Source of the DNA: an uncultured Methylopila sp.
Lineage (GTDB): Bacteria > Pseudomonadota > Alphaproteobacteria > Rhizobiales > Methylopilaceae
Assembly: GCA_902168115.1 (NCBI GenBank)
Contig: CABHPB010000067.1
Span: 62,001 to 126,000 of the forward strand
Length of the DNA stretch: 64,000 bases
Direction: 5' to 3'
The stretch's first letter is position 1. The number at the start of each line of letters is the position of its first letter. Both the position numbers and the translations under genes were made by a program. Positions 37,379 through 56,041 of the stretch are shown here, piece by piece. The notes below the pieces were generated by a model. It searched no databases, was not told the origin of the DNA, and saw nothing but the letters and a program-made list of their open reading frames with translations.

Positions 37379-38845
37379 TCACTCCAGCAGCATGCGCTTC
37401 AGCAGCTCGACCTCGTCGAACAGGGCTTGATCGGTCTTCACCAGCTCGTCGATCTTGCGGACCGCGTGCAGCACCGTGGTGTGATCGCGGCCGCCGAAGC
37501 GCCGGCCGATCTCCGGCAGCGAGCGCAGCGTGAGCTGCTTTGACAGGAACATCGCGACCTGACGCGGGCGCACCACGTTCTGGGTGCGGCGCGAGGACAG
37601 AACGTCCGCGCGGCTCACCTGATAATGCTTGGCGACGATGCGCTGGATGTCCTCGATCTTGACGCGCTTCGGCTCGACCTGCCGCACGAGGTCGCGCAAC
37701 GCGGTCTCGGCCATTTCGACCGTGATCGGGGCGTTGGTCAGAGTGTTGTGCGCAAGCAGCCGGTTCACGGCGCCGTCGAGATCGCGGCCGTTCGCTGTGA
37801 TCACGCGCGCGGTGTAGGCGACCACCTCATCCGGCACCTCGAACTTCGGATGCACGGCCTTCGCCGCCGCGATGCGCACGCCGAGGATCTTGCCGCGAAG
37901 CTCCTCGTCGAGCGCGCCGAGCTCGAGCGTCAGGCCGCCCGCGAGCCGCGAGCGCAGCCGCTCGTCGACGCCTTCGAGCTCCGACGGCGGGCGATCGCCC
38001 GCGATCAGCACCTGCTGGCCGCCGTCGAGCAGCGCGTTCAGCGTATGGCCGAACTCCTGCTGCACGGTCTTGCCCTGCAGGAACTGCAGGTCGTCGATCA
38101 CCAGCAGGTCGATCTGGCGGAGCTTGTCCTTGAAGGCGAGCGCCGTCTGCGCCTTCAGCGCGGCGACGAAGTCGAACATGAAGCGCTCGGCGGTCAGGTA
38201 CAGCACGCGCCGGCCGGCCGCCTCGGCCGCATGGGCGGTCGCCTGCAGCAGGTGGGTCTTGCCGAGGCCGACGGAGGCGTGAATCACGAGCGGGTTGAAC
38301 CGGACGGCCTCGCCCGGACGGGCGTCGGCGATCTGGCGCGCCGCGGCGTAGGCGAGCTGGTTGGAACGGCCGACGAGGAAGGTGTCGAACGTCAGCCGCC
38401 GGTCGAGCGGCGAACCGGTGAGGCGGTTCGGCTCAAGGCGCTGGACGGTCGCGAGCTGCGGCGTCGGGCGCGTCTCGACGCGCTCGAGCGGCGCCGGCGC
38501 GGAGACGACGTCCCGGCTCTGCACGGCGAGCTTCGCCGCGGCCGTCCGGACGCCGATCGAGACGCGCTCGACCTCGGCGCTCTCGTCGGCGAACAGCGCG
38601 GCGATGCGCTCGGCGTAATGGGTCTGGATCCACGTTTTCAGGAACCGCGTCGGCACCGTGAAGTGCGCGACGCCCCCCTCCACGCGGTCGAGCATGAGGC
38701 CCTGGAACCAGCTCGTGAAGACGTCCTCGCCGAATTCGGCTCGGAGGCGGCGGGAGACCAGCCGCCAGGCGCCGTCGACGGAACCGGGGGTTTCCGACAG
38801 AAGCGGGTTCTTGGCGAATGCCACGGACTGCGCAGACAACATCAT
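37379..38845 (-). CDS. dnaA: Chromosomal replication initiator DnaA
   Basis: The 488-residue protein has an N-terminal DnaB-interaction domain (FTSWFQGL), a linker, AAA+ Walker [12 protein letters not shown], Walker [14 protein letters not shown], and the C-terminal DNA-binding domain with [18 protein letters not shown]. Two adjacent ATG codons (38845 and 38842) could start it. No consensus DnaA boxes were recognised in the flanking gaps, so the origin itself may lie elsewhere. Confidence 0.97.
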
Positions 38846-38908
38846 GCCTCCCCGAACGACCGGCGGTCCCGGTGATTGAAGATTTTTGCGAGCGGCGAAA
38901 GCCGCGGA

Positions 38909-39352
38909 TCAGGATTGCATCCACGGCAGGCCGTCGGCTTTCCAGCCGGACGAGCCGCCGCGATGGCGAGAAGAGTCGAGCGGGCCTTCGAAGCCCCCGA
39001 CGATGTTGAAGCAGCGCGCGAAGCCGCGCGCCGTCAGCGCCGCCGCGGCGGCCTGGCTGCGGGCGCCGCTCCGGCACAGGAAGAACACGGGGGTCTCCGC
39101 GGTCACGCCAGCCGCGCCGAGCGCACCGGCGACGCGGTCCGCGAAGGACGGGTCGACCTGCATGGTCGGGTAGCTCTGCCATTCCTGGAACAGCGGGCTC
39201 TTGCCGAGCCCGCCGAGGTCCGGCACGCCGACGAACGACCATTCCGCCACCGTGCGGACGTCCACCAGCGCCGTCGCCGGCTCGGTCTCGAGGGCCGTCC
39301 ACGCGTCTTTCGGCGTGACGTCGCCTGCATAAGGCCTGTTCGAAGAAGACAT
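38909..39352 (-). CDS. Single-domain rhodanese
   Basis: The 147-residue protein has one rhodanese domain with active-site Cys93 in the loop CRSGARS, preceded by LVDVRTVAEWSFVGVPDL. It would transfer sulfane sulfur. A conserved C-terminal stretch with GGFEGPLDSSRHRGGSSGWKA is typical of the alphaproteobacterial subgroup. It lies between dnaA and rpsT, 63 bases before dnaA. Confidence 0.88.
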   Translation of the reverse strand: MSSSNRPYAGDVTPKDAWTALETEPATALVDVRTVAEWSFVGVPDLGGLGKSPLFQEWQSYPTMQVDPSFADRVAGALGAAGVTAETPVFFLCRSGARSQAAAAALTARGFARCFNIVGGFEGPLDSSRHRGGSSGWKADGLPWMQS

Positions 39353-39716
39353 GCGACCGCTTTCGCCGAACCGAGGTCCGGCGCCCCATTTCCTGTAAAT
39401 TTTAGATGAAGTCACGCTGTCGCCCGCCGAATTCGGGGCAACGCACCACATCCCGCCTGTCAAACGCCTCCCGCCCTGCAAATCACGCAAGGCACGTGAT
39501 CGACAGTATACAACGGGTTACTTGTTATTATTTCCGACCGAGAGCCGTAACCAACTCAATTTCGAAGAATTAGTTCAACTCCGTCCATGTCCCGGAAGAT
39601 ACAACGGGGCTCTCAGACGGCGCAATGGGCGCCTCCGTCGCGAATCGGCGCGCGGCCTCGATTCGCTCCCTCCCCGGCGGTAGGTCAATCCCGCGAACGC
39701 CCTCTATAGCCAGCAA

Positions 39717-39761
39717 AATCCCTGCGCCGGCTTCATGAATGAGTCGCAGGGATTCTTTTTT
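39717..39761 (+). terminator. Orphan terminator-like hairpin
   Basis: AATCCCTGCG (39717-39726) pairs perfectly with CGCAGGGATT (39745-39754), followed by CTTTTTT. No plus-strand gene lies upstream within 2.3 kb, so it may end an unannotated small RNA. Confidence 0.6.
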
Positions 39762-39993
39762 CAGGGGGTACGGGCCGTGACGGCCCGTGACGGTTCGATG
39801 AATGCCGGATTCCGGGTCCCTCTCCGGCACTTGCCTCCAAATACCTGTAATTTAAGGGAATTTTTTGCTCGCTCTTGGCATACAGACTCAATCGTGAGAG
39901 CGGTCCGAAGCGCAGGAGCAACTTTCGCGAGTCAAGCCGGAATCTGCGTACGCATAAACACGGATGAGCCGTGCGCAATTCGTTCGAAAACGA

Positions 39994-40018
39994 AAAAACC
40001 CGGCGCAAGGCCGGGCTT
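39994..40018 (-). terminator. Intrinsic terminator of rpsT
   Basis: On the minus strand CCCGGC and GCCGGG form a stem followed by a T-run, 26 bases after the rpsT stop. Confidence 0.85.
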
Positions 40019-40044
40019 TAACACGTCGCAAAACCGTCGTGAAT

Positions 40045-40311
40045 TCAGGCGCTAAGAGCCTTCACGCGGGCCGCGAGGCGCGAGACCTTCCGCGACGCGG
40101 TGTTCTTGTGCAGCACGCCCTTCTGGGCGGCGCGCATGATCTCCGGCTCGGCCGCGCGGAGCGCGGTGTTGGCGTCCTCCGCCTTGCCGGAGGCGATCGC
40201 CTCCTCGACCTTGCGGAGGAAGGTGCGGACCCGGCTGCGGCGGGCGCCGTTCACCGTGGTGCGACGAAGGATCTTGCGAGCGGCCTTCTTGGCCGACGGC
40301 GTATTGGCCAT
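40045..40311 (-). CDS. rpsT: 30S ribosomal protein S20
   Basis: The 88-residue basic protein starts [18 protein letters not shown] and ends with [18 protein letters not shown], the standard S20 pattern. The longer upstream frame is not credible. Its place upstream of dnaA is conserved in Rhizobiales. Confidence 0.97.
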
Positions 40312-40479
40312 GGCGATGTCAGTCCTTAAACGGTCTTGGCCGGCCTGGGCCGGACGGCTCGCCACGAACCAGCGGGCGCGCGCGAAACGAGAAGCGGCGG
40401 ACTTCGAGCCCGCCGCGAATGCGCGGTCTCGTAGCAACAGAGCGGCGCAGCGTCAATGCTCTCGCTCCCCCAGGCCGCG

Positions 40480-41799
40480 CTATTCCGCGGCCTGGCGCGG
40501 CTGGGCGTCGAAGCGGAGCCGTGGCCAGACGATCCGAACCCGCGCGCCCGTGCCTCCGCCGACGCGGTTGCCCAGCGTCAGCCGGGCGCCAGAACGCTCC
40601 AGCAGGGTCTTGGCGATGAAGAAGCCGAGCCCCAGCCCGCCGCCCTCGCTCGTCACCTCGCGATCGGCCGTGCGGCTCGAGACATAGGGCTCGCCGAGAC
40701 GCGTCAGGATCTCCGGCGCGAAGCCTGGACCGTCGTCGAGAACCTCGATCTCGACCTTGTCGGGATCCCAGCGGGCCGACACCTCGACGCGCGAGGCGGC
40801 GAAGTCGACCGCGTTCTCGACGATGTTGCCGAGGCCATAGAGCACGCTCGGATTGCGCAGGCAGCGCGGCTCCGGACGGGCGCCCTCGCCCCGGATGTCG
40901 AGCGCGACGCCGAAGTTGCGGTGCGGCTCGACGATCTCGTCCAGCAGGTGGCCGACGGGCATGGTCTCGAATGGCGCGCCCTGCTCGTCGAGCGAGGTGA
41001 GCTTCTTCAGGATGTCGCGGCAGCGCGCCACCTGTTCGCGCAGCAGCGCCATGTCCTCGTCATGCGGACCGGGCACGAGCGCCCTCTCCAGCTCCTTGGC
41101 GACCAGCGCGATGGTCGCGAGCGGCGTGCCGAGCTCGTGCGCGGCGGCGGCGGCCAGCCCGTCGAGCGCGGACAGGTGCTGCTCGCGGGCGAGCACGAGT
41201 TCGGTCGCTGCGAGCGCCTGGGCGATCTCGCGGCCCTCCTCCGAGACCCGCCACGCATAGACGCCGATGAAGGCGAGCGCGAGCATCAGCGCGCACCAGA
41301 TGCCGGCGACGTAAAGCAGCGGCAGTTCGAGCGAGCCCACCGACGGCCACGGCAGCGGAAAGCGGCTGAGCGCCAGAACGCTCGCGCAGGCCGCGACGAG
41401 CGCGCCGAGGAGCATCGTGATGCCGGGCGCAAGCGCCGTGGCGGAAATCATCACCGGCGCGAGGAACAGGATGCAGAACGGGTTCTCGAGGCCTCCCGTC
41501 AGATAGAGCAGCGCGGCGAGCTGGAGCACGTCGTAGGCGAGCAGGGCCCCGGCGGCGACGCCGGACAGGCGCTGGCTGACCGGATAGACAAGGCGAAGCG
41601 CGACGTTCAGGGCCGCAGACAGCGCGATCACCATCAGGCCCGCGAGCAGCGGAAGGCGGAAGCCCAATATGAAGTGCACGCCGAGCAGCGCCGCGGCTTG
41701 GCCTGCGACGGCGAGCCATCTGAGACGGATCAGCGTGTCGAGACGCAGGTCTCGCTGCGCGCGCAGCTGAACCGAGGCGGTGGAGAGGTCGAGAGCCAT
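40480..41799 (-). CDS. regB: RegB/PrrB/ActS-type redox sensor histidine kinase
   Basis: The 439-residue protein has six membrane helices, with the quinone-binding motif GGLENPF at residues 102-108. The H-box has His221 in AAHELGTPLAT. The redox-sensitive cysteine of RegB corresponds to Cys260 (ARCRDILKK), and the ATPase domain has NIVENAVDFA and GGGLGLGFFIAKTLL. In related bacteria it senses quinone/redox state and phosphorylates RegA/ActR to control respiration and carbon fixation. No partner regulator is adjacent in the window. An ATG four codons upstream (41811) is an alternative start. Confidence 0.9.
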   Translation of the reverse strand: MALDLSTASVQLRAQRDLRLDTLIRLRWLAVAGQAAALLGVHFILGFRLPLLAGLMVIALSAALNVALRLVYPVSQRLSGVAAGALLAYDVLQLAALLYLTGGLENPFCILFLAPVMISATALAPGITMLLGALVAACASVLALSRFPLPWPSVGSLELPLLYVAGIWCALMLALAFIGVYAWRVSEEGREIAQALAATELVLAREQHLSALDGLAAAAAHELGTPLATIALVAKELERALVPGPHDEDMALLREQVARCRDILKKLTSLDEQGAPFETMPVGHLLDEIVEPHRNFGVALDIRGEGARPEPRCLRNPSVLYGLGNIVENAVDFAASRVEVSARWDPDKVEIEVLDDGPGFAPEILTRLGEPYVSSRTADREVTSEGGGLGLGFFIAKTLLERSGARLTLGNRVGGGTGARVRIVWPRLRFDAQPRQAAE

Positions 41800-41947
41800 T
41801 GCGCGCACCATATAGGAGCGCCGGACGGCGCAGAATGCGACGCTCGGACCGCGGTCGCTCTTCACGACAAAGGGCCCATTGACCGGCCGGGGCATCCGGC
41901 CGAACGTCGGATGGTTACCGCATCGCAGCAAGACCAAAGGGACGAGC

Positions 41948-43459
41948 ATGGCCCGGGACGGCAAGAGAGGCGGAATTGGCGAGTTCGGCGGCGCTCCCAT
42001 CCAGACCGAGTGGGGCGGGTCGGCGTCGTCCATGCCGCTCTACTGGATGTTCGAGGCCGCGCAGGCCTCGCTCGGACCGGCGCGGGCGATGGCGGATGTC
42101 GGGCGGCTCTACTTCAAGAACCCCGCGAACCCCGCCTCGCACACCGAATGGGGCCGCAAGATCGGCGCGATGTGCGAGGTGTTCGAGCGCGCGACCCGCC
42201 GCTACGGCAAGCCCGAATTCGGCATCAAGGAGACGTCCGTGCGCGGCGAGCGCGTGCCCGTCACCGAGCGCGTCGTCTGGAGCCGGCCGTTCTGCGATCT
42301 GATCCGCTTCGAGCGTGGCGTCGGCGAGCGCGCCCGCAAGCAGCCCAAGCTGCTGATCGTCGCGCCGATGTCGGGCCACTACGCCACGCTGCTGCGCGGC
42401 ACGGTCGAAGCGATGCTGCCGGACCACGACGTTTACATCACCGACTGGACGGACGCTCGGCTGGTGCCGCTCACCGAGGGCGCCTTCGACCTCGACGACT
42501 ATATCGACTACCTGATCTCGATCTTCCGCTTCCTGAAGGGCGAGGTCCACATCATGGCCGTCTGCCAGCCGGCGGTGCCGGTGCTGGCGGCGGTGGCCAG
42601 GATGGAAGCCGAGGACGATCCCTTCGTCCCGCGGTCGATGACGCTGATGGGCGGCCCGATCGACACGCGCGTCAATCCGACCGGCGTGAACCAGCTCGCG
42701 ATCGAGCGCGGGACCGAATGGTTCGCGCGCAACGTCGTCACCGTCGTGCCGTGGCCGCATCCGGGCGTGATGCGCCAAGTCTACCCGGGCTTCCTGCAGC
42801 TGACGGGCTTTGTGTCGATGAACCTCGACCGCCACATGTCGGCGCATTACGAGTTCTTCAATCACCTCGTCGACGGCGACGGCGACTCGGCCGAGAAGCA
42901 CCGCGACTTCTACGACGAGTACCTCGCGGTGATGGACCTTACCGCCGAGTTCTATCTCCAGACCGTCGAAACGGTGTTCGTGCGCCATTCGCTGCCGAAG
43001 GGCGAGATGACCCATCGCGGCAAGCCCGTCGACTGCTCGAAGATCCGCCGCTGCGCACTGATGACCGTCGAGGGCGAGAAGGACGACATCTCCGGCGTCG
43101 GCCAGACCCAGGCCGCTCAGACGCTGTGCTCCAATCTGCCGGCGGAGAAGAAGGTCCATTATCTGCAGCTTCGCGTCGGACACTACGGCGTGTTCAACGG
43201 CTCGCGGTTCCGGTCGGAGATCGCTCCGCGCATCGGCGACTTCATCCTGTCGAACGAACCGCGAGCGACAGCGAAGGCCGCGCCGGCGCAGCGCCCGGCC
43301 GAAAGCGAAGGCGTCTCGGCCGGAGACGACGTGCCCCCAATCGCGCCGCTGGTTTCCGGCGAAGACGCGCCGCCCTCCTCGACCGAGGCCGCTCCGAAGC
43401 GCAAGCCGGCGTCACGCAGGCCCCGCGCTTCGGCGAAGGAGAGCGAAGGCGTGGGGTGA
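41948..43459 (+). CDS. phaZ: Intracellular polyhydroxybutyrate depolymerase
   Basis: The 503-residue protein has the intracellular PhaZ pattern: YWMFEAAQASLGPARA near the N-terminus, a lipase-box-like VCQPAVPVL with nucleophile Cys206, and the His region VGHYGVFNGSRFR. It hydrolyses PHB granules to 3-hydroxybutyrate. A low-complexity tail rich in Ala, Pro, Glu and Arg follows residue 440. It is divergent from regB by about 150 bases; PHB storage is usual in serine-cycle methylotrophs. Confidence 0.92.
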   Translation: MARDGKRGGIGEFGGAPIQTEWGGSASSMPLYWMFEAAQASLGPARAMADVGRLYFKNPANPASHTEWGRKIGAMCEVFERATRRYGKPEFGIKETSVRGERVPVTERVVWSRPFCDLIRFERGVGERARKQPKLLIVAPMSGHYATLLRGTVEAMLPDHDVYITDWTDARLVPLTEGAFDLDDYIDYLISIFRFLKGEVHIMAVCQPAVPVLAAVARMEAEDDPFVPRSMTLMGGPIDTRVNPTGVNQLAIERGTEWFARNVVTVVPWPHPGVMRQVYPGFLQLTGFVSMNLDRHMSAHYEFFNHLVDGDGDSAEKHRDFYDEYLAVMDLTAEFYLQTVETVFVRHSLPKGEMTHRGKPVDCSKIRRCALMTVEGEKDDISGVGQTQAAQTLCSNLPAEKKVHYLQLRVGHYGVFNGSRFRSEIAPRIGDFILSNEPRATAKAAPAQRPAESEGVSAGDDVPPIAPLVSGEDAPPSSTEAAPKRKPASRRPRASAKESEGVG

Positions 43460-43816
43460 CGCCCTCGCGCCGCCTTTCGACTTACGAACTCTTGGTCGAC
43501 CGCACGGGAACCCGCCGGCGGTGGGACCTCGTTTGACCGTTTGAAGTGCGGGCTAAGCAGCCGGGCGAATGACGACGGCCTTGATCCTGTTTGGAACCGC
43601 TCCAATAGATGCGACGGGTTTCAGGCCGGCTTCCACCGCACGGAAAGTCCGGGCCTTTTTGCCGCACCGCACACTTGAAGACGGACCACTCGACTTTATT
43701 TGTTTCTTATTAGTTTAAGCTCGCGTAAGCGTGCATCGCGTCGAACCAATGCGGTCTGCGGACGGCTAGACTGCAAACGCTTCCGATCTCTTCTTATTAT
43801 TATGAAGGAGCTCCCC
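43460..43816 (+). promoter_or_regulatory. Region upstream of the lanmodulin gene
   Basis: The 357-base gap has no credible gene. An imperfect GC stem followed by TTTTT near 43625-43663 may terminate phaZ. The segment 43691-43725 is AT-rich and could hold the lanmodulin promoter. GAAGGAG (43804-43810) is a strong Shine-Dalgarno, seven bases before the ATG. Confidence 0.45.
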
Positions 43817-44224
43817 ATGAACTTCCGTATCGCCGCCGGCGCCGCGATCGCCGTCGCTCTGATTTCGGCCCCGGCCGTCGCCCAGACCAAGATGTCCGGC
43901 GCCGAGATCATCAAGAAGTACAACAAGGACAAGGACGAGACCCTCGAGCTCGCCGAGGTCATCAATCTCGGCGTGAAGCTGTTCGAGGAGATCAACCCGG
44001 ACGGCGACACGACGCTCGAGAGCAACGAGACCGCCGGCCGCATCACCGAGAAGGACTGGAAGCGCGCCAACAAGGACGGCGACAAGACCCTCGAGATGGA
44101 CGAGTGGCTGTCGATCCTGCGCAAGCGCTTCGACAAGGCCAATCCGGACAAGGACGGCTCGCTCGACGCCGCCGAGCTGGACACCCCGGCCGGCCAGGCC
44201 GTCGCCTTGATGATCGTCAAGTAA
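43817..44224 (+). CDS. lanM: Lanmodulin (periplasmic lanthanide-binding EF-hand protein)
   Basis: The 135-residue precursor has a signal peptide with cleavage after about residue 22-23 (APAVAQ). Four 12-residue EF loops follow: NKDKDETLELAE (36-47), NPDGDTTLESNE (60-71), NKDGDKTLEMDE (85-96) and NPDKDGSLDAAE (109-120). All four have acidic residues at loop positions 3, 5, 9 and 12. They are separated by only 12-13 residues, the compact spacing that sets lanmodulin apart from calmodulin. Position 2 is Pro in loops 2 and 4 and Lys in 1 and 3; position 1 is Asn throughout. This resembles, from memory, the Hansschlegelia lanmodulin more than the Methylobacterium one. It should bind rare-earth ions in the periplasm. 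GAAGGAG and a clean terminator show a monocistronic gene. Confidence 0.92.
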   Translation: MNFRIAAGAAIAVALISAPAVAQTKMSGAEIIKKYNKDKDETLELAEVINLGVKLFEEINPDGDTTLESNETAGRITEKDWKRANKDGDKTLEMDEWLSILRKRFDKANPDKDGSLDAAELDTPAGQAVALMIVK

Positions 44225-44244
44225 GTCCGACCTCGACCGCTTCA

Positions 44245-44275
44245 GGGCCCGCGCCGCAAGGCGCGGGCTTTTTTC
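44245..44275 (+). terminator. Intrinsic terminator of lanM
   Basis: GCCCGCGCC pairs with GGCGCGGGC around GCAA, followed by TTTTTTC, 20 bases after the lanM stop. Confidence 0.93.
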
Positions 44276-44312
44276 TTGGCGCTTGATGTCCGAGAGCCAT
44301 AGGTCTCGACGC

Positions 44313-45059
44313 ATGAGCTCCATCGCCATCCATCGCGGCCCGTGGCGGCCAGCCATCAGGTCGCTCGCCGAGGGCGAGGCGATCGCAGCGATCGGCGACG
44401 TCCACGGGCATGACGACCTGTTCGCTGCGCTCACCGAGGCGATCTCGGAAGATTTCGCCGGCGCCGCCTCGGCGCGCATCGTGCAGCTCGGCGATCTCGT
44501 CGACAGGGGGCCGGCGAGCCTCTCCGTGCTGAAACGGGCGCGCGCGGGCCTCGCGGGCGTCCCGACCGTCGTGCTCATGGGCAACCACGAGGACCGCATG
44601 CTGCGCTCGGTCTTCGGCGCCGATCCGCAGGAACGCGAGGCCTGGCTCGGCTTCGGTGGCCGCGAAACGCTCGCCTCCGCCTGCGTCGACGCGAGCGACC
44701 CCAAATGGCCCGAGCGCTTCGCCGACGCCCTCGGTCCTGATCTGACCGGATGGCTGGCCGCGCTGCCGCGCAAGGTGCGGATCGCCGATCTGCTGTTCGC
44801 CCATGCCGGGATCGATCCCGCCATCCCGCTCGACCGCCAGAGCGACCACACACTGATGTGGACGCGCTGGCCCTGGCTCGACAGCGCCGGCCCCTATCCG
44901 GAGAACGTCGCGGTGATCCATGGCCACACGCCCACGATCCCGCTCGACCTCGGCCATCCGCACCGCATCAATCTCGACACCGGCGCTTTCCGGACCGGAC
45001 TGCTGACGGGGCTGGTGATCCTCGGCGACCGGATGCGGAGCGTCCAGGCGGCGCGCTGA
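44313..45059 (+). CDS. Metallophosphoesterase, protein-phosphatase-like
   Basis: The 248-residue protein has the calcineurin-like signatures AIGDVHGHDD, LGDLVDRGP, GNHEDRML, FAHAGIDP and IHGHTP, giving a dinuclear metal site. It resembles bacterial PPP-family serine/threonine phosphatases (PrpA/PrpB type). The ATG at 44313 (MSSIAIHRG) is chosen; one nine codons upstream is possible. It starts only 40 bases after the lanM terminator, so its promoter must be short or it depends on read-through. Confidence 0.85.
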   Translation: MSSIAIHRGPWRPAIRSLAEGEAIAAIGDVHGHDDLFAALTEAISEDFAGAASARIVQLGDLVDRGPASLSVLKRARAGLAGVPTVVLMGNHEDRMLRSVFGADPQEREAWLGFGGRETLASACVDASDPKWPERFADALGPDLTGWLAALPRKVRIADLLFAHAGIDPAIPLDRQSDHTLMWTRWPWLDSAGPYPENVAVIHGHTPTIPLDLGHPHRINLDTGAFRTGLLTGLVILGDRMRSVQAAR

Positions 45060-45168
45060 TCCGACATCGGCGCTGGGCGCGGGCGCTTTGCGCGTTATGG
45101 TCTGAGCGGGCTTCGCGCACTCCCCAAGCGGAGCGACGGCCTTGGCGCCGGACCAGAGGAGATCTGCG

Positions 45169-45522
45169 ATGAGTTGGCTGGACCAGGCGAAGGGCGGCCT
45201 CGGCGGCATGATCGAACAGGCGGGTCGGGCGGCGCTGCCGGGCCTCGTCGAGAAACTGCTTCCCGGCGGGTTGCAGAGCGTGCTCGATCAGCTTTCGAGT
45301 TCGGGGCTCGGGCAGCAGGTCAATTCCTGGCTCGGGCGCGGCGAGAACCAGCCGATCACGGTCGACGACCTGCGCAACGCCCTGTCGAACGAGCAGGTCC
45401 GCGCGGTCGCCGACAAGCTCGGCCTGCCGGTCGACCAGGCGCTCGAGGTTCTCGCAGGCCGCTTGCCCGAGGCGGTCGACCAGGCGAGCCCCGAAGGCGC
45501 GCTCAAGACGCCGCCCGCCTGA
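45169..45522 (+). CDS. YidB-family (DUF937) protein
   Basis: The 117-residue protein starts MSWLDQAKGGLGGMIEQAG and contains LPGLVEKLLPGGLQSVLDQL, QVNSWLGRGENQPIT and LGLPVDQALEVLAGRLPEAVDQ. This is the YidB/DUF937 pattern, of unknown function. GAGGAG precedes the ATG. No secretion signal is seen. Confidence 0.8.
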   Translation: MSWLDQAKGGLGGMIEQAGRAALPGLVEKLLPGGLQSVLDQLSSSGLGQQVNSWLGRGENQPITVDDLRNALSNEQVRAVADKLGLPVDQALEVLAGRLPEAVDQASPEGALKTPPA

Positions 45523-45653
45523 GACGATCTGATCTTTCGTCGGAGCCGCGCAGGGCGGACGACGCCCGCGCGTGCCCTATACCATGCTGCGGCGGTGTAA
45601 TCGCCGGAGCGGTCGTGCGGCTGTCCGGGCCGCCGGTTGAAGGAAACGATCCG

Positions 45654-46157
45654 ATGGTTCGACTCTTGAGCTTCTGTTCGGCGGCAGCGATCGCGGCCGC
45701 CTTCGCAATGCCTGCGCCCGCCATGGCGCTGACGATGAAGGAATGCGGCGCGAAGTATCAGGCCGCGAAAGAGGCCAACACGCTGAAGGGCATGAAGTGG
45801 AACGACTTCCGCAAGGCGGAGTGTTCCGACGACGACGCCTCCGAAGCCGACGCCGCGGCGGCGGAGCAGGAAGCCGAAAAGGCCGCGCCGAAGCCTTCGG
45901 CCGCGACCAAGACCGCGACCGACAAGCCGGCGACCGAGAAGACCGCCGCGCCGAAGAAGAGCGCGTCCGGCAAGGCGTCCTTCCCGAGCGACGTCTCGAC
46001 GAAGTACGCCAGCGAGACGCCGGGCAAGGCGCGGATGCACACCTGCCTCGACCAGTACCGCGCCAACAAGGAGGCGGGCGTCGACCAGCCGAAGTGGATC
46101 GAGAAGGGCGGCGGCTACTACTCGCAGTGCAACGCCAAGCTCAAGGGCGGCGCCTGA
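45654..46157 (+). CDS. Secreted PsiF-like protein
   Basis: The 167-residue protein has a signal peptide (LLSFCSAAAIAAAFAMPAPAMA). The first PsiF-type motif is MKECGAKYQAAKEANTLKGM, with WNDFRKAEC. A Lys/Ala/Thr-rich linker follows, then a second Cys-containing unit MHTCLDQYRANKEAG with YYSQCNAKL. PsiF domains are known from phosphate-starvation proteins; the function is unclear. AAGGAAAC precedes the ATG. Confidence 0.72.
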   Translation: MVRLLSFCSAAAIAAAFAMPAPAMALTMKECGAKYQAAKEANTLKGMKWNDFRKAECSDDDASEADAAAAEQEAEKAAPKPSAATKTATDKPATEKTAAPKKSASGKASFPSDVSTKYASETPGKARMHTCLDQYRANKEAGVDQPKWIEKGGGYYSQCNAKLKGGA

Positions 46158-46220
46158 GCGCCTGACCGAGGGCGCCGGATCCCGCCCTGCCGATCCGGCG
46201 CGGCGGCCGACGGCCCAACG

Positions 46221-46252
46221 AAAAACGCCGCGCTCTCTCGAGCGCGGCGTCT
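46221..46252 (-). terminator. Terminator between convergent psiF-like and porin genes
   Basis: ACGCCGCGCT (46225-46234) pairs with AGCGCGGCGT (46241-46250). A run of A at the left gives a T-run on the minus strand, ending the porin transcript. It can also act for the plus-strand gene. Confidence 0.85.
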
Positions 46253-46284
46253 TCCTTAGATCCGGGCCGATAAGGCCCGTTCGA

Positions 46285-47121
46285 TCACTTCAGCTTGCTG
46301 AGCGAGGTGTCGAAGGAGATCTTGCCGACGACGGCGTCGCCGCACCAGCCGCGGACGCCGGTGTTGATGGCGCACTCACGCTTGGAGAGGTTGGTGTCGC
46401 TGTAGCGCACGTCGAGCGTCATGGCCTTGTAGGTCACGCCGGCGCCGATGTTCCAGGTGATGTAGTCACGCGGATTGGCGAGGCGGGACTTGTCGAACCA
46501 CTGCTTGCCGAGCTCGCCCGAGACGTAGAACGACAGGTCCGGGAAGGCGGCGAGCGGCACGTTCACCTTCGGGATGACCGAGAGGTAGAGGGCGTCGTTG
46601 CCGAGGTTCACGAAGTCCGAGGTCCAGTAGACGTTACCGGTGATCGAGCCGAAGTCGCCGAAGGCGACGGCCGGCTTGGCGTAGAGCTCCCAGTAGTCGG
46701 TCTCACGGGCGAACTTGGCCTCGCCCGGGTAGTAGTAGTACAGGCCGCCGACGTCGATCGAGAACCAGTCGAACGAGTGACGGATGCCGCCGTAGAAATC
46801 GATCTCCATGGAGGGGTCGCTCAGCGGACGCGGGAAGCTGACGCTCGAACCCCAGACGCCGGCGTAGAACCAGTCGGCGACCTGCAGCTCGGCGTAGCCC
46901 TGGACCGCCGGGTCCTTCTTGGAATTGGTGATGCCGCGGAAGCGGTAGTCGGTCACGCCGGCGACGCCGAAGGCGACGTCGATCACGGACGGCACTTCAG
47001 CGACGACCGCGGGCTCCGGAGCGGCGAGGTCGGCGGCCGAGGCCGAGCCGACGATCATGGCTCCCAGCGCGACGCCCGTCAGCGTCTTGAGAGCAAGTCC
47101 GGACAGTCCATTCATATTCAT
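46285..47121 (-). CDS. TorF-family outer-membrane beta-barrel porin
   Basis: The 278-residue protein has a signal peptide (GVALGAMIVGSASA) and a beta-barrel pattern starting with DVAFGVAGVTDYRFRGITNSKKDPAVQG, the hallmark of the TorF putative-porin family (TIGR02001-like). It has aromatic girdle residues (GGLYYYYPGE) and a C-terminal strand VGKISFDTSLSKLK. It is likely an outer-membrane channel. A 6-3-6 palindrome lies about 125 bases upstream of its start. Whether it belongs to the neighbouring metal-uptake genes is unknown. Confidence 0.8.
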   Translation of the reverse strand: MNMNGLSGLALKTLTGVALGAMIVGSASAADLAAPEPAVVAEVPSVIDVAFGVAGVTDYRFRGITNSKKDPAVQGYAELQVADWFYAGVWGSSVSFPRPLSDPSMEIDFYGGIRHSFDWFSIDVGGLYYYYPGEAKFARETDYWELYAKPAVAFGDFGSITGNVYWTSDFVNLGNDALYLSVIPKVNVPLAAFPDLSFYVSGELGKQWFDKSRLANPRDYITWNIGAGVTYKAMTLDVRYSDTNLSKRECAINTGVRGWCGDAVVGKISFDTSLSKLK

Positions 47122-47615
47122 TCCCCGATTCAGAAAACGACAGCGGTTAACCGGGAGAGTCGGGTCGAGACCGTCGAAAGTCGAGCCCGATTTTTGAGCT
47201 TTCGTTGCAGCGTTCTTGGAAGATGCCTTTTTGCCACAGTTTGTATTGAACAGAGTTCAACGAGACCTTTAATCATCGATCACGCCACCGTGCGTCCGTC
47301 GTATTTGCTAAGAATCGCCTAATTCCACGCACACGGCACGTATCCGGGGCGGTCATCCATCCGAAGACGCCGCGATCTGCAAAAATACGATCCGGCATTT
47401 CTTAAGTGCGAAGAACTTTTACTGTCTGCTGATCGACGCGGTGCGAACGGCCGCGACGTGAATCGTACGTTGAGCATGCTGCGCCGCAGCGAGAATGGCG
47501 CGGGAGCAGAGAGCGCCTGGAGGGTTGCACGCCCACCGAATTCGCAGGGCGCCCAAAAACGCAGCAGAGCGCAGATCACCTGCCCCACCGTCCGAAGCCT
47601 TTGCAGCGCCAAACG
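47122..47615 (-). promoter_or_regulatory. Upstream region of the porin gene
   Basis: This 494-base region has no supported gene. TTGAAC-AGA-GTTCAA (47246-47260) is a perfect 6-3-6 inverted repeat and a candidate operator for the porin promoter. AT-rich patches occur near 47200-47300. Confidence 0.4.
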
Positions 47616-47643
47616 AAAAAGGCCGGCCCCGTGGGGCCGGCCT
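47616..47643 (-). terminator. Intrinsic terminator of the first TonB receptor
   Basis: On the minus strand GGCCGGCCCC and its complement form a hairpin followed by TTTTT, just past the receptor stop codon. Confidence 0.88.
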
Positions 47644-47668
47644 CAGTGCTCGGGAGGAAGGACGACCG

Positions 47669-50107
47669 TCAGTACTTGGTGACGAGCACCGGGGCCGCGT
47701 CGGCGGCGAACTTCACGTTCAGGCCGCCGTAGAAGGTGATCGGACGGGCCGGCGTGATGGAGCGCGGATCGGTCAGGTTGAGGAAGCCGATGTCGTCGGT
47801 CTCGAAGAACGTGCCGTAGGTGGCGTACTTCTTGTTGAAGAGGTTCTTGATGCCGCCGAACACCCTGAGCTGCTCCGTCGCCTGGAACGAGCTGTTGACG
47901 TTGACGATGCCGTAGCCCGGCAGCTTCGGGAACTGGTTGCTCTCGTCGCCGACGTAGCGCTGGCCGCTCATCACGAGCACGTCCGCGCCGACGCTCCACT
48001 TCGGCGTCACCTTGTAGACGCCGCCGAACTTGAGCTGGTGGTCCGGAATGCCGGTCAGCTTGTCGCCCTTGCTGACCCGGATGACCCCGCCCTTGGCGGC
48101 GGGGCTGTTCGAGTTCAGCCGAACGCCCTTCTGGAAGGTCGCGTCGATGTAGGAGTAGTTGGCGTAGATCGCCCAGCGCTCGGCCGAGAGCTGGCCGGAC
48201 AGCTCGACGCCCTGGCGGCGGGTCTTGCCGCCGTCGACGAAGTAGCCGCGGCCGGTGATGGCGCTCGGGACGTTGACGATGTCGTTCTTGTTCTCGGCGC
48301 GATAGACGGCCGCGCTCCAGTTCACCAGCGCGCCGGAAAACTCGTGCTTGCCGCGGAAGCCGGCCTCGCCGGTGCGGGTGACGACCTGCTTCAGGGGCGG
48401 ATCGGACACCAGCGTCGCCTCGAGCGGGCACGGCACGTTCGGGTTGGCGCAGCCGAGCTCGAGCGGGGTCGGGGCGCGGTTCGACTCGGAGTAGGAGCCG
48501 AAGGCCGTGATGTCCGGCGTGATCTTGTAGGTCAGGCCGCCCATCGGGTTGAAGCGGTTGAACTCATGCGTGCCGTCGAGGCCCGGGCCGGCGCGCTGGC
48601 CGTTCGGCTTGATCGGGAACAGGTCGCCATGGTCGGCGATCTGGATCTGCGCGTAGTTCCAGCGCGCGCCGAGCGTGGCGGACAGGCGATCGGTGATGTC
48701 CAGCGTGTCGGTCGCGTAGAGGCCGACGTAGTGGTTCGTTCCGGTGATGTCGACCGGCGTGATGCCGCCCGGAATCTGCGTGTAATACTGCTGCCCGGTG
48801 CCGACGCACTGCAGGTTGCCGGGGATGATGCAGATCTCGCTCCATCCCTTGAAGTCGGTCTTGCCGTAGTCGTAGCTGACGCCGAACACGAAGTGGTTCT
48901 TGCGGCCGAAGAACTCGGACTCGTTGGTCGCCTGGAAGGTGCCGCCGGCCTGGTCGGAACGGACGCTCGAACGCTCGATCGAGCCGGGGGTCGAGCCGGG
49001 GCCGAAATCGTCCTCGTCGTTCGGGAACCAGCGGTTCCTGATCCGCTTGCCCGTGACCGGGTCGCGCACGAAGAGGCGCCGGTCGTCGTCGTCGATGCCG
49101 GGGAACTCCTCCGCCTCGAGACAGAGGAACTTCGGATTGTTCTCGCACGGACCGACGTCGGTGTCGTTGCCGTCGACGCCGTCGCGGTTGAACTTGCGGT
49201 AATAGGCGTTGGCCTGGATCGACCAGGCGTCGGTCACCTCGAACTTGCCCTGCAAGTTCAGCATGCCCATTTCGTTGTCGTTGATCTGGTCGCCCGTATA
49301 GACCGCGCGCCGGCGCTGATCGAGAAGCTGGAACGGCGTCGGGCCGACCACGCCGAGCTTGCTGTCGGCGTAGGTGACGTTGAGGTGGATCTCGGCCTTG
49401 TCGGACTTGTAGCCGACGTCGCCGAACACCTTCTTCATGTTCGACGCGGAGTAGTCGCGCCAGCCGCCGTCACGCGCGCCCTCGATGGCGATGTAGCCGG
49501 CCCACGGGCCCTTCTGAACGCCCCACTGGGCCGAGCCCTGGTAGCGGCCGAACGACCCGATCTGCGTCTCGAATTCGAGGCCCTGATAGGTGAAGCCGTT
49601 CTTGGTCTGGAAGCTGATGGCGCCGCCGAGCGCGTTCAGGCCGAAGACCGGGTTGTTGGTCCAGATGTCGGTGCGGTCGATCGCGACCGACGGGATCAGG
49701 TCGTAGTTGACCGTGTCGCCGAGCGCCTCGTTGATGCGCACGCCGTTCTGGTAAACCGCGAGGCCCTGCGGGATGCCCACCGTCGGCGACGACTGGAAGC
49801 CGCGGAAGGAGATCTCCTTGTTGAAGGGGTTGCCCGTGACGTCGCTGGTGCTGATGCTCGGCGACTGCTGCGCGAAGCCTTCCTGGACCGTCGCGAAGTC
49901 GGCCGACCGGATCGCGTCGCCCTTGATGCTGCGGACGTTGCCCGGGATCTTGTCGATGTCCAGCCCGTCGCCGCCGATCGGCGTGGTTCCGATGACCTCG
50001 ATTTCCTCGAGGTTCGTCAGCCCCTGTTCCTGCGCGAGGGCGGCGAAAGGCGCGAGGACGGCGAGGCACGCGACGCCCGCCAGGAGCCCAGCTCTTGTTC
50101 TCTTCAT
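47669..50107 (-). CDS. TonB-dependent outer-membrane receptor (candidate LutH-like)
   Basis: The 812-residue protein has a signal peptide (LLAGVACLAVLAPFAALAQ) and an N-terminal TonB-box-like segment, EEIEVIGTT. The plug domain follows, with SISTSDVTGNPFNKEISFRGF and ENALGGAISF-type features, then a 22-strand barrel ending VKFAADAAPVLVTKY. Extracellular loops are unusually acidic (EAEEFPGIDDDDRR and FPNDEDDFGPG, near residues 305-360). In Methylobacterium, lutH lies beside lanM and imports lanthanide complexes. Position here, 3.4 kb from lanM and divergent from a PQQ dehydrogenase, makes a lanthanide role plausible but unproven. The ATG at 50107 has GGGGGA upstream. Confidence 0.85.
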   Translation of the reverse strand: MKRTRAGLLAGVACLAVLAPFAALAQEQGLTNLEEIEVIGTTPIGGDGLDIDKIPGNVRSIKGDAIRSADFATVQEGFAQQSPSISTSDVTGNPFNKEISFRGFQSSPTVGIPQGLAVYQNGVRINEALGDTVNYDLIPSVAIDRTDIWTNNPVFGLNALGGAISFQTKNGFTYQGLEFETQIGSFGRYQGSAQWGVQKGPWAGYIAIEGARDGGWRDYSASNMKKVFGDVGYKSDKAEIHLNVTYADSKLGVVGPTPFQLLDQRRRAVYTGDQINDNEMGMLNLQGKFEVTDAWSIQANAYYRKFNRDGVDGNDTDVGPCENNPKFLCLEAEEFPGIDDDDRRLFVRDPVTGKRIRNRWFPNDEDDFGPGSTPGSIERSSVRSDQAGGTFQATNESEFFGRKNHFVFGVSYDYGKTDFKGWSEICIIPGNLQCVGTGQQYYTQIPGGITPVDITGTNHYVGLYATDTLDITDRLSATLGARWNYAQIQIADHGDLFPIKPNGQRAGPGLDGTHEFNRFNPMGGLTYKITPDITAFGSYSESNRAPTPLELGCANPNVPCPLEATLVSDPPLKQVVTRTGEAGFRGKHEFSGALVNWSAAVYRAENKNDIVNVPSAITGRGYFVDGGKTRRQGVELSGQLSAERWAIYANYSYIDATFQKGVRLNSNSPAAKGGVIRVSKGDKLTGIPDHQLKFGGVYKVTPKWSVGADVLVMSGQRYVGDESNQFPKLPGYGIVNVNSSFQATEQLRVFGGIKNLFNKKYATYGTFFETDDIGFLNLTDPRSITPARPITFYGGLNVKFAADAAPVLVTKY

Positions 50108-50460
50108 TTTTAGCATCCCCCGAGCGCAGGCTACGCGCGCCGCAGCGCAAACCGCCGCTGCGATTGTGTACGTGACTCGGGGGATCGCCATCAATCTGCC
50201 ACGAGTGTGGCGGGAACTATTGGTTCGGCCAAGATGCTGATTTACAACATTATTATTAAACGCTTAGGTTGGTTTCGACCAGTCGATATGATCGAGCTGC
50301 ATGAACAGACAAGCCTCCGCTCCAAGCAAACCGGCCGGATACCCTGAGACACAGGTACAAACGTACGACTTTTGATGGACGCGCGACGCCACCGGCCCGT
50401 TTAGCGCGAAAACGCTTCACAAGATCGCGATAAAAGCGGCATATCTGGGAGAAACGTCGG
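50108..50460. promoter_or_regulatory. Divergent promoter region, TonB receptor / PQQ dehydrogenase
   Basis: The 353-base gap separates two divergent metal/PQQ-related genes and is AT-rich at 50235-50270. It must carry both promoters, and a shared operator would let one metal-responsive regulator control both. No known metal-regulator box (Fur, Irr, RirA) is clear. Confidence 0.5.
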
Positions 50461-52275
50461 ATGAGACTTGAACTGTTCTTGAGCCGACCGACCGTGACGC
50501 TGCTCGCGCTCGCCTGTCTCGCGGCTGGAGCCGTCGCCGACCCGGTCGACGACGCGCGGCTGCGCGCGGCCGGAAACCCCGACCGCGTCGACTGGATCCT
50601 CCCGGGACGCGACTATGGCGACCAGCGCTTCTCGCCGCTCGAGGGCGTCACGCCCGAGACGGCAAAGCGGCTCGTGCCCAAGTGGATCTATCAGACCGGC
50701 TACGCCGCGACGTTCCAGACCTCGCCGCTGGTCGCCGACGGCGTCATGTATCTCTCCGCGCCCTTCTCCCACGTCATGGCGATCGATGCGAAGACGGGGC
50801 GCGAGATCTGGCGCTACGAACACAAGTCGACCGCGAAGAAGCTTTGCTGCGGCCCGGCCAACCGAGGCGTCGCGCTGGGCTACGGCCTGGTGTTCGTCGC
50901 GACCGTCGACGCCCGGCTCGTCGCGCTCGACGCGAAGACCGGCAAGCCGGCCTGGGACAAGCCGCTGGTAGACGCCGACGATGTCCTGACCAGCGAGGAC
51001 GCCAAGACGCTCGATCCGAACGATCCGGTGATGAAGGGACAGGTCTCCGGCGCGACCGGAGTCGGCTCGAACTCCGCGCCGCTCGTCTTCGACGGCAAGG
51101 TCTTCGCCGGCATCACCGGCGTCGGCTACGGGCTGCACCTCGACGGGCCGCGGCCGGGCGCGCCGCTCGGCGCCGTCGTCGGCGTCGCCGGCCGCTACGG
51201 CCGGCCGGGATTCCTTGCTGCTTACGACGCCAGAACCGGCGAGCAGATCTGGCGGTTCGACACGACCAAGCCGGACTGGGAGGGCGAGTTCCGCGTCGCC
51301 ACCGCTTATGGCGTGCCGATGCATCGCGACGTGGCGGCGGAGAAGGCCGCGGCGCCCGATCACAAGGACGCCTGGAAATACGGCGGCGGCTCGATCTGGC
51401 ACGCGCCCGCGCTCGATCCGGAGCGCGGCCTGCTGTTCTTCGGCGTCGGCAATCCGTCGCCCCAGGTCGCGGGCGAAAGCCGCCCCGGCGACAACCTCTA
51501 CACCTCGTCCCTCGTCGCGCTGGACGCCAGGACCGGCCGGGTGCGCTGGAGCTATCAGCAGACCCCGCACGACCTGTGGGGCTACGACGTGGCGAGCCCG
51601 CCGAGCCTGTTCGACGTGACGATCGACGGCAAGAGGCGCGCCGCCGTCGGCCAGGCCTCCAAGCTCGGCTGGTACTTCGTCCACGACCGCGAGACCGGAG
51701 AGCTTTTGTTCAAGTCCGAGCCCTTCGTCCCGCAGTCGAACCTGTTCAGGCAGCCGACGGCCGAGGGCGTCGTCATCGCGCCCGGCGTCGCGGGCGGGTC
51801 AAACTGGTCGCCGGCCTCCGTCGACGAGGCGGGCGGCGTCGCTTACGTCGCCGCCATGCATTGGCCGGCGACCTACCGCTCGCAGGTCATCCCGGCCGCC
51901 GACGGCAAGCCGGAGGTTCGCTACTTCAACATCGAGCCGGCGACCTCCGGGACGTATGGCCTCCTAAGCGCGATCGACCTCGCCGGGGGCGGCAGGATCA
52001 AGTGGCAGACGAAAACGCCGGAGCCGCTGATCGGCGGCGTTGTGGCGACCAAGGGCGGAGTCGTCTTCACCGGAGAGGGCAACGGCGACTTCTCGGCCTT
52101 CGACGCCAGGAACGGCGAGAAGGTCTGGAGCTTCAACACTGGCGCCGGCGTCAACGCCCCGCCGATCGCCTATCGCCTCGGGGACAAGGACTACGTCGCG
52201 GTCGCCGCCGGCGGGAGCCAGATCTGGGGCTTCCGGCAGGGCGGCGCGGTGATCGCCTTCGGCCTGCCGGACTGA
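50461..52275 (+). CDS. Periplasmic PQQ-dependent dehydrogenase, divergent active site
   Basis: The 604-residue protein has a signal peptide (LALACLAAGAVADPV) and an eight-bladed propeller with W-motifs such as AIDAKTGREIWRYE and AYDARTGEQIWRFD. The adjacent Cys129-Cys130 pair in CCGPANRG is the vicinal disulfide of methanol-type dehydrogenases. Asn331 (GVGNPSP) matches a metal ligand. The catalytic segment reads PHDLWGYDVASP (369-380): Gly374 stands where MxaF/XoxF have the catalytic Asp, while Asp376 occupies the extra-Asp position typical of lanthanide enzymes. The MxaF Glu-ligand position appears to be Arg245. The substrate is unknown; no cytochrome partner follows. Confidence 0.85.
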   Translation: MRLELFLSRPTVTLLALACLAAGAVADPVDDARLRAAGNPDRVDWILPGRDYGDQRFSPLEGVTPETAKRLVPKWIYQTGYAATFQTSPLVADGVMYLSAPFSHVMAIDAKTGREIWRYEHKSTAKKLCCGPANRGVALGYGLVFVATVDARLVALDAKTGKPAWDKPLVDADDVLTSEDAKTLDPNDPVMKGQVSGATGVGSNSAPLVFDGKVFAGITGVGYGLHLDGPRPGAPLGAVVGVAGRYGRPGFLAAYDARTGEQIWRFDTTKPDWEGEFRVATAYGVPMHRDVAAEKAAAPDHKDAWKYGGGSIWHAPALDPERGLLFFGVGNPSPQVAGESRPGDNLYTSSLVALDARTGRVRWSYQQTPHDLWGYDVASPPSLFDVTIDGKRRAAVGQASKLGWYFVHDRETGELLFKSEPFVPQSNLFRQPTAEGVVIAPGVAGGSNWSPASVDEAGGVAYVAAMHWPATYRSQVIPAADGKPEVRYFNIEPATSGTYGLLSAIDLAGGGRIKWQTKTPEPLIGGVVATKGGVVFTGEGNGDFSAFDARNGEKVWSFNTGAGVNAPPIAYRLGDKDYVAVAAGGSQIWGFRQGGAVIAFGLPD

Positions 52276-52577
52276 CAGCCGCTCGACGGTCCGGCCGCGC
52301 CCACCGGATCGTCGAGCAGAACCCCGGGCGAGTGTCGAACACTCCCGATTTCAGGTTACCGTGGAGATGTTGCCCGCGCGCAACGGCGGTTTCGTACACT
52401 TGTGAATACGTCGATGGTCGATCGAATACAGAATCCGTTTCTTCCTGAAACTGGTATATTTTAATTATTATAATTACACTCGTTATATTGAGCAATTCTA
52501 ATCTTCGCTAATCTTGTTGCGTCAGGAAGAGATCGTGGCCTATCCGCGGCGAAACCGTGTTTCGTCTGGAGGCCCCC
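52276..52577 (+). promoter_or_regulatory. AT-rich promoter region of the second TonB receptor
   Basis: Bases 52380-52515 are strikingly AT-rich against the genome, with AATTATTATAATT (52463-52475) and several TATATT/TTATAT tracts. This is a likely promoter with an operator. GGAGG (52568-52572) sits five bases before the chosen GTG. Confidence 0.5.
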
Positions 52578-54809: not shown

Positions 54810-56041
54810 GCGAGGCCGCCGCTGAGCGCGGCGCGGCGGGAACGGGGTCGCGGCCCCTGCCCTCTCCCGCCGCGGTCGTGCTCGGCGTCGGCGGGCTCTA
54901 CGTCGCGCAGTCGGTCATCGGCGGCGTGACGTTCCAGGGCCTGCCGGCGGTGCTGCGCAAGGACGGCGCCTCGCTCAACGAGATCGCCTTCGTCCTGCTG
55001 ACCGTCCTGCCCTGGTCGTTCAAGTTCCTCTGGGCGCCCGCGATCGAGCGCATCCGGCTGCCGGCCTCCGGCGGCAACCGCTCGCGGCCGGTGGTCGGCG
55101 CGATCGGCGCGATCGGCGTCGCGACGCTCGTCGCCGCCGCGCTGACGGGGCCGAGCATGCTGGGAGCGGTGACGGCGGCGCTCGTCGTCGGCGCCTTCGC
55201 CTCGGCGACGGTCGACATCGCCTGCGACGGCTATGCGGTCGAGAGCCTCGCCGAAAAACATCGCGGCTGGGGCAACGCCGCGCAGGTCGGCGGCGCCTAT
55301 CTCGGCTCGGCGATCGGCGGCGGCGCCTTCCTCATCCTGATCGACCAGCTCGGCTGGCGCGACGCCACGCTGATCATGGCCGGCGTGCTGGCCGCGCTCG
55401 GCCTGCCCTTCCTCCTCAGCCGTAATCCGCTGCGGCCCCACCGCGCGGACGCCGAGCGGCCGTCGCTGAAGGCCGCGTTCCGCCGCCGCGAAGTGTGGTT
55501 CGGCATCGCGCTCGTCGGGCTCTACGTGCTCGGCCAGAAGTGGGCGATGGTGCTGATCCAGCCCTATCTGGTCGACGCCGGCATGAGCCTGTCGCTGATC
55601 GGCATCCTCAACGGTTTCGTCGGCGCGGGCGTCGGCATCGTCGGCGCGCTGCTCGGCGGCTGGGCGACGAAGCGCTATGGAGCCCTGCCGGTCATGATGG
55701 CCTCGCTGCTCGCGCAGGTCGGCGTGACCGCGGCGCTCTCGGCCGCGGCCTACGCCGCGTGGCGGTCCGAGACCGGCCTCGGCGCGCTCGCCATCGCGAG
55801 CTCGGGCGTCATGGCCGCGGGCTTCGTCGCGCTCTACGCCGAGCTGATGGGCCGCGCCTCGCTCGATCAGGCCGGCGTCGACTTCACCCTGTTCCAGTGC
55901 GCCGACGGCATCGTCTCGGTGATCGGATGGCAGCTCGTCGGCCTGTTCGGCGACGGGCTCGGCTTCGCCTGGTGCTTTGGGATCGCCGCCGTGATCGGGC
56001 TCGGCGTCGCCGCGCTGCTGCCGAGCGTGATGCGGGGATAG
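54806..56041 (+). CDS. MFS permease, RhtX/FptX-like metallophore transporter
   Basis: The 411-residue protein has about 12 membrane helices. The N-terminal block YVAQSVIGGVTFQGLPAVLRKDGASLNEIAF and the PWSFKFLWAP motif are typical of the RhtX/FptX (AmpG-like) family that imports siderophores across the inner membrane. It starts with GTG overlapping the receptor stop (GTGA), so the two are translated together. The pair should form one route across both membranes for an unknown metal chelate. Confidence 0.87.
   Translation: MSEAAAERGAAGTGSRPLPSPAAVVLGVGGLYVAQSVIGGVTFQGLPAVLRKDGASLNEIAFVLLTVLPWSFKFLWAPAIERIRLPASGGNRSRPVVGAIGAIGVATLVAAALTGPSMLGAVTAALVVGAFASATVDIACDGYAVESLAEKHRGWGNAAQVGGAYLGSAIGGGAFLILIDQLGWRDATLIMAGVLAALGLPFLLSRNPLRPHRADAERPSLKAAFRRREVWFGIALVGLYVLGQKWAMVLIQPYLVDAGMSLSLIGILNGFVGAGVGIVGALLGGWATKRYGALPVMMASLLAQVGVTAALSAAAYAAWRSETGLGALAIASSGVMAAGFVALYAELMGRASLDQAGVDFTLFQCADGIVSVIGWQLVGLFGDGLGFAWCFGIAAVIGLGVAALLPSVMRG

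Follow-up and report, generated by a model that had tools for sequence, protein, structure and literature searches.

The window, as we call the whole stretch of 64,000 nucleotides that was analysed, carries on its forward strand a gene for a lanmodulin of the Hans type (lanM, 43817–44224; 135 amino acids plus a stop codon). A Shine-Dalgarno-like GAAGGAG (43804–43810) precedes the start codon and is, judged by eye, the likely ribosome-binding site. The reading frame opens with a hydrophobic signal peptide (43817–43882), with likely cleavage at AVA-Q, also by eye. On the same strand, phaZ (PHA depolymerase; 41879–43459) precedes lanM, as it does in every one of the 13 genomes of the genus, and a metallophosphatase gene (44283–45059) adjoins lanM in 11 of these 13. 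An intrinsic-terminator-like hairpin of 12 pairs with a T run follows 3' of lanM (44244–44271, forward strand), and is suggestive only, because the scan returned three such sites in the window versus 1.3 expected. Comparisons of lanM with the two nearest species gave dN 0.043 and dS 0.32, and dN 0.084 and dS 0.35, respectively. Because dS exceeds dN, lanM behaves as a real gene. An Rfam scan of positions 38000–50000 gave no match at the gathering score, and a sigma-70 scan of 43400–44400 found no promoter-like site. In the viral contig comparison, 10 stretches matched a pattern and none was confirmed as a relative; the plasmid comparison gave only two matches, both distant (36 and 42%).

Identity of the protein

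The protein contains four EF-hand loops, EF1 NKDKDETLELAE (43922–43957), EF2 NPDGDTTLESNE (43994–44029), EF3 NKDGDKTLEMDE (44069–44104), and EF4 NPDKDGSLDAAE (44141–44176), all on the forward strand and starting at residues 36, 60, 85, and 109. Position 9 is acidic in all four (E, E, E, and D), and the spacers between the loops are 12, 13, and 12 residues long. The original prediction had named a lanmodulin gene on the grounds of a signal peptide, four loops with an acidic position 9, and a compact spacing of 12–13 residues; each of these features is present, and the identification is borne out by the sequence and its motif spacing, by the predicted fold, and by the genus and genomic context. 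Of the hallmarks of lanmodulins given in PMC10232371 (this and the other papers cited are represented here by parts of their text), those of sequence and fold are present: a size below 200 residues with four EF-hand loops, a spacing of 12–13, proline at position 2 of one or more of the loops (here EF2 and EF4), and, in the predicted model, the LanM fold of a three-helix bundle with peripheral sites.

A phmmer search of PDB sequences returned the lanmodulin of Hansschlegelia quercus (Hans-LanM; 8dq2/8fnr) at 2.2e-43, that of Ancylobacter lacus (9pi2) at 9.8e-40, and that of Methylorubrum extorquens AM1 (Mex-LanM) at 1.5e-21 (6mi5) and 1.6e-21 (8fns), with the best calmodulin at 0.055. Best matches to calcium EF-hand proteins, named beforehand as the result that would count against a lanmodulin, did not occur; the top PDB matches were all lanmodulins. 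An AF2 model that took three named relatives as input beside the window protein reached a pLDDT of 91.2. Foldseek placed 8dq2 first (TM 0.94, rmsd 1.2 Å), and the four chains at E ≤ 0.001 were all lanmodulins; the predicted fold also matched Mex-LanM 8fns at TM 0.85. VIA-align Z scores were 20.8 for 8dq2, 17.5 for 8fns, and 7.4 for the best non-lanmodulin. The predicted fold is not evidence independent of the sequence matches.

Pfam found generic EF-hands only, and the NCBIfam LanM model NF053806 scored the window protein at 113.7 bits, under its curated cut-off of 135. In a control scan, six other Hans-type proteins also fell below this cut-off (102.7–128.5), whereas two Mex-type proteins exceeded it (172 and 178). 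Since H. quercus LanM itself scores 102.7, missing this cut-off says little and is no defining feature. The model misses the Hans-type proteins tried, so annotation pipelines that rely on it would probably label them simply as EF-hand proteins. A periplasmic, calmodulin-like calcium EF-hand protein without lanthanide preference, to which the generic Pfam matches and the low NCBIfam score could point, is highly improbable and was rejected on score (0.055 for the best calmodulin versus 2.2e-43), on loop spacing (12/13/12 versus about 25), and on fold, and the EF1–3 N1/E9 ligands of the window protein are moreover those of Hans-LanM, which responds to Ca only at 60 µM (PMC10232371). The sequence and the predicted model thus support assignment of the window gene to the lanmodulins of the Hans type. 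This kind is already known: the Hans cluster, including Hansschlegelia members, was published in 2023 and comprises 20 sequences in PMC10232371.

Hans-type features and the dimer network

Alignment over the mature protein, the check proposed in the original prediction, gave 67% identity to Hans-LanM, 60% to the A. lacus protein, and 41% to Mex-LanM. Closer relatives are the LanM of JADBEO010000005.1 (L002/L005; 92%), the LanM of G012 (L006; 88%), and L007 (73%). The first two share the gene order, the upstream element, and an identical EF4 with the window, and differ by small changes in EF1 and the linkers. The value of 67% lies above the threshold of 65% identity to a member of the Hans cluster, in our own alignment rather than in the network of the paper, and the N1 and E9 ligands of that cluster are present in EF1–EF3.

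In EF1–3 of Hans-LanM, La is ten-coordinate through N1, D3, D5, E9, E12, and a carbonyl (PMC10232371). EF1 of the window protein is of this type (N1, D3, D5, T7, E9, and E12), and the EF1–3 ligands agree with those of Hans-LanM except S7 for T7 in Hans-LanM EF1. EF2, with P2, differs from its Hans-LanM counterpart at one of 12 positions (N for G at 11), and so does EF3 (K for Q at 6), so that the likeness of loops 2 and 3 to the Hansschlegelia protein, noted in the original prediction, was confirmed. Mex-LanM differs in having D1/G6/D9 loops in EF1–3 and Glu in place of Arg100.

In the Hans-LanM dimer, Arg100 reaches across to Asp85 and Glu91 in EF3 of the partner monomer, with Asp93 as a buttress, and dimerisation is >100-fold tighter with La than with Dy, whereas Mex-LanM is a monomer (PMC10232371). 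The network is complete in the window protein (R102, D87, E93, and D95); the Arg102 codon (44120–44122, forward strand) is the equivalent of Hans-LanM Arg100, whose role comes from PMC10232371, and EF3 supplies D3, E9, and D11. The A. lacus protein likewise combines Hans-type EF1–3 with this network; in the literature text searched, only PMC10232371, which names the genus, bears on it.

We compared the network residues in 56 loci and three PDB chains from among the matches listed. Rows that duplicated others (L004, 8dq2, and 9pi2), the frameshifted L017, and two unrelated EF-hand proteins (L020 and L022) were dropped, leaving 25 Hans-type and 28 Mex-type proteins (27 loci plus 6mi5). Because Arg at position 100 was the criterion for the split, the Arg count is given by construction. 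Identity to the window protein reproduces it: among the matches listed, the 25 Hans-type proteins show at least 53% and the others at most 47%. The other network residues are independent of the split: among these matches, Glu91 occurs in all 25 Hans-type proteins and in none of the 28 Mex-type ones, Asp93 in all 25 and in 19 of 28, and Asp85 in every protein of both types.

Seven of the 12 residues in helix alpha1, which contributes to the dimer interface, differ from those of Hans-LanM (VINLGVKLFEEI versus VIHAGATTFTAI), and dimer strength may therefore differ between the two proteins. A Hans-type lanmodulin with a changed hydrophobic interface could bind lanthanides and yet be monomeric, or dimerise alike with all ions. 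The alpha1 changes include A to L and T to L, and the importance of the network has been established for one protein only (PMC10232371). We nevertheless consider this outcome unlikely: the network is retained at all four positions, and alpha2, the helix on which Arg100 sits, has only four of 12 residues that differ from Hans-LanM (WLSILRKRFDKA versus WLKILRTRFKRA). From these conserved residues we infer, as the preferred reading, selectivity for light lanthanides and a metal-sensitive dimerisation like that of Hans-LanM.

The fourth loop and its history in the genus

The departure from Hans-LanM lies in EF4, which is of the Mex type in the window protein (NPDKDGSLDAAE; Mex-LanM, NPDNDGTIDARE) and not of the Hans type (DANKDGKLTAAE in Hans-LanM; DKNKDGKLTAKE in the A. 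lacus protein). The suggestion of a natural variant of a lanthanide-separating protein was thus right, and the variation is this Mex-kind loop. Among the matches listed, 21 of the 25 Hans-type proteins have the K7-L8-T9 of the Hans kind, and S/T7-L8-D9 is found within this type only in the window protein, L005, and L006 (all with N1-P2-D3), and in L007 (D1-P2-D3). T7 and D9 occur in 28 of 28 Mex-type proteins among these matches. The partial literature texts searched do not mention a hybrid EF4, and a Mex-type EF4 on a Hans-type lanmodulin looks new.

The ligands of Hans-LanM EF4 are D1, N3, D5, and E12, and the site holds Na in the La structure and Dy in the Dy structure, whereas EF4 of the Mex-LanM crystal holds a ten-coordinate Nd (PMC10232371). 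Changing N1 of Mex EF4 to D raised the Gd stoichiometry from about 2.2 to 3.8, and N1 was blamed for weak binding (PMC11561317). Affinity of Mex EF4 is micromolar in PMC10232371 and millimolar in PMC11561317. Window EF4 keeps N1, which counts against a strong fourth site. Based on the loop residues, we predict a weak to moderate fourth rare-earth site at EF4 of a La-favouring dimer; because the published Mex EF4 figures differ, this is a prediction and not a result.

The Mex-type loop could instead reflect neutral drift, with a site that binds nothing important and a protein that works like Hans-LanM. EF4 is the weakest site in both lanmodulins studied (PMC10232371), and the loop has changed several times in one genus, which makes drift a serious contender, if not the reading we favour. 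Against drift, EF4 is identical at 12 of 12 positions in three species, the other two mature proteins being 88 and 92% identical to that of the window, and the whole Mex EF4 ligand set (N1, D3, D5, D9, and E12) is present and not decayed.

Matches to lanM were found in 13 of 13 genomes of the window's genus (the G008 copy is frameshifted), in none of five genomes from the family's other two genera, and in 48 of 397 genomes of the order sample at 1e-10. The mature part of one of these proteins (L015, from G003) shows complete identity to 8dq2, which makes this the genus of H. quercus, in agreement with the kinship table. The G002 protein is identical to the LanM of H. beijingensis DSM 25481. 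The record JADBEO010000005.1 is titled Chelatococcus sambhunathii S14, a name that may be wrong; its LanM is that of G009, which the kinship table places in the same genus as H. quercus.

We mapped EF4 on a species tree of dnaA, dnaN, regB, phaZ, and rhodanese genes (outgroups mostly dnaA and rhodanese). The Mex-type loop occurs in the window clade (G000, G009, and G012; support 100), in G008, and in G006. The Hans-type loop is found in H. quercus, the sister of G006 (support 100), as well as in G001, which branches beside the window clade (support 83). If lanM was vertically inherited, EF4 switched at least three times by parsimony, or two without G008, which may be set aside because the genome is only 88% complete and the lanM in it carries a frameshift. 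A LanM tree built without EF4 had low support inside the Hans type. The G008 gene (L017, G008:C1:2707840–2708121) has apparent frameshifts, from a pseudogene or a sequencing error, and its frame after the frameshift reads NDGTLDAKE.

While EF4 switches, the EF2 and EF3 ligands remain unchanged within the genus. Over 12 loci, a set that excludes L017 and the second copy (L021), ligand-position identity was 100% for EF2 and EF3, 92% for EF1, and 68% for EF4, and Mex-type EF1 loops also occur in G006 and G008. In the structure, the loops are arranged as the pairs EF1/EF4 and EF2/EF3 (PMC10232371), so ligand change is confined to one pair and the dimer-bearing pair is fixed. The window protein and those of G012 and G006, set against H. 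quercus LanM, form a series in one genus with the same dimer-switch residues and different EF1/EF4 pairs. Lanmodulins find use in rare-earth recovery, with Hans-LanM achieving a single-stage Nd/Dy separation; such a natural series would reveal the part of EF4 in capacity, cooperativity, and heavy/light discrimination without designed mutants. A lanmodulin from the family of G051 (L077) has an EF1 (GKKPTDTLTVQE) that lost the acidic ligands at positions 3, 5, and 9.

Lanthanide machinery, upstream element, and proposed role

In all 13 genomes of the genus, lanM lies near phaZ, regB, rpsT, and dnaA (37379–44224 in the window). In the genome to which the window belongs, five full PQQ alcohol dehydrogenases exceed the family cut-off: four carry Asp-x-Asp, of which three are XoxF-like, and the fifth is MxaF-like. 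The motif reads HDEWD(F/Y)D in three, HDGWDYD in one, and HDEWDYA in the MxaF-like enzyme; the extra Asp is the lanthanide signature of PQQ alcohol dehydrogenases. A lut-type operon, with matches over cut-off to TIGR03863, TIGR03866, TIGR03864, and TIGR03861, sits on contig C124, with one xoxF and a xoxJ-like gene nearby. The window's lanM is outside this lut cluster. Similarly, lanM of Methylocella silvestris is not beside the lut homologues and was regulated differently under the conditions used (PMC9291206).

Upstream of lanM is an AT-rich tandem element, TTTATTTGTTTCTTAT (YTTAT-N6-YTTAT; 43695–43710, forward strand), that is shared with the region upstream of the lut operon. This block is kept in three species although its flanks have diverged, and it occurs once in the window against 0.00 expected at up to three mismatches. 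The window's own genome has four exact matches to the pattern: at lanM, at lutA (C124:39214–39229, 154 nt before the called ORF), at fae (C124:43240–43255, 639 nt before the gene), and at one other site. Across the 13 genomes of the genus there are 62 matches versus 33 for a reversed control; the lanM, lutA, and fae sites account for 32, and the other 30, about the control number, recur in at most three genomes (by translated likeness within 1.4 kb).

The element precedes lanM in 12 of 13 genomes (76–114 nt before the start extrapolated from the alignment), and reads both ways in G007, G010, and G011. The exact element is absent at both lanM copies of G002, the second being a diverged gene (L021, G002:C5:18446–18844). 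It precedes lutA in 12 of 13 genomes as well (185–260 nt before ORF residue 31, same strand); in G009 the lutA region is cut by a contig end, with the element and other neighbours there. In four genomes it lies 619–641 nt before fae. As lanM is where the element was discovered, the independent test is provided by the lutA matches, and since the genomes are related, the 12 do not amount to 12 independent tests. Its presence upstream of both suggests, from sequence, that lanM and the lut operon belong to one regulon. The exact element was not found in the 450 nt upstream of 13 mxaF loci (best one to three mismatches) or of 16 of the 25 xoxF-like matches (best one to two mismatches). The lanM promoter of Methylobacterium aquaticum requires mxcQE for its La response (PMC9260416). 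A literature search covering parts of open-access papers returned no report of such a shared element, which looks new and provides a direct handle on possible joint control of lanthanide uptake and lanmodulin.

The best explanation as a whole, to which we assign a probability of roughly 0.88, is a secreted periplasmic Hans-type lanmodulin that would work as follows. It is based on the sequence, the predicted fold, the conserved ligands and network residues, the orthologues, the setting, and the upstream element, from which we infer metal binding, selectivity, the dimer, the fourth site, and regulation; the mechanism is taken from PMC10232371. The apo protein would be largely disordered, and EF1–EF3 (N1, D3, D5, the T7 carbonyl, E9, and E12) would wrap light lanthanides with high affinity and so fold it. 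For the larger ions, from La to about Nd, the glutamate of EF3 would stay bidentate and hold Arg102 of a second molecule, giving the dimer. The Mex-type EF4 would add a fourth, weaker rare-earth site, which is missing for La in Hans-LanM. In M. aquaticum, LanM is not essential for growth on methanol, and its loss leads to aggregation and membrane impairment on La exposure (PMC9260416); on this basis we propose that the window protein would serve a methylotroph as a periplasmic buffer and carrier of light lanthanides, protecting the envelope and feeding uptake and XoxF. Its expression would be tied to that of the lut uptake operon within a single regulon.

A broader joint proposal, tentative and in our estimate somewhat short of even odds, is that the genus leaves EF2/EF3 and the dimer switch it carries unchanged and repeatedly retypes EF1/EF4 between Hans and Mex; that the window protein, as a natural hybrid, forms dimers with light lanthanides and takes a fourth ion; and that lanM and the lut importer form one regulon whose regulator binds the tandem 11-bp repeat.

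Downstream of lanM (46285–56041) are genes for a TorF-like porin, a TonB receptor, a PQQ-dehydrogenase-like protein (408.5 bits, under the family cut-off of 480), a ferrioxamine-type TonB receptor, and an RhtX-like transporter. The first TonB receptor (47669–50194), five genes downstream of lanM, was considered as a dedicated lanthanide receptor, a reading that found no support: it matches no specific family over cut-off and is not a conserved neighbour, with a strong match near lanM in only three of the 12 other genomes of the genus (G009, G012, and G001; 12–20 kb around lanM, some stretches ending at a contig end). A block similar to the tandem element and yet different, ATAATAAY-N3-CTTAT, lies 281–295 nt before xoxF in 10 of 16 loci (e.g., L174, L176, and L184). 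The exact tandem element itself recurs 65 nt upstream of the LanM match in L077.
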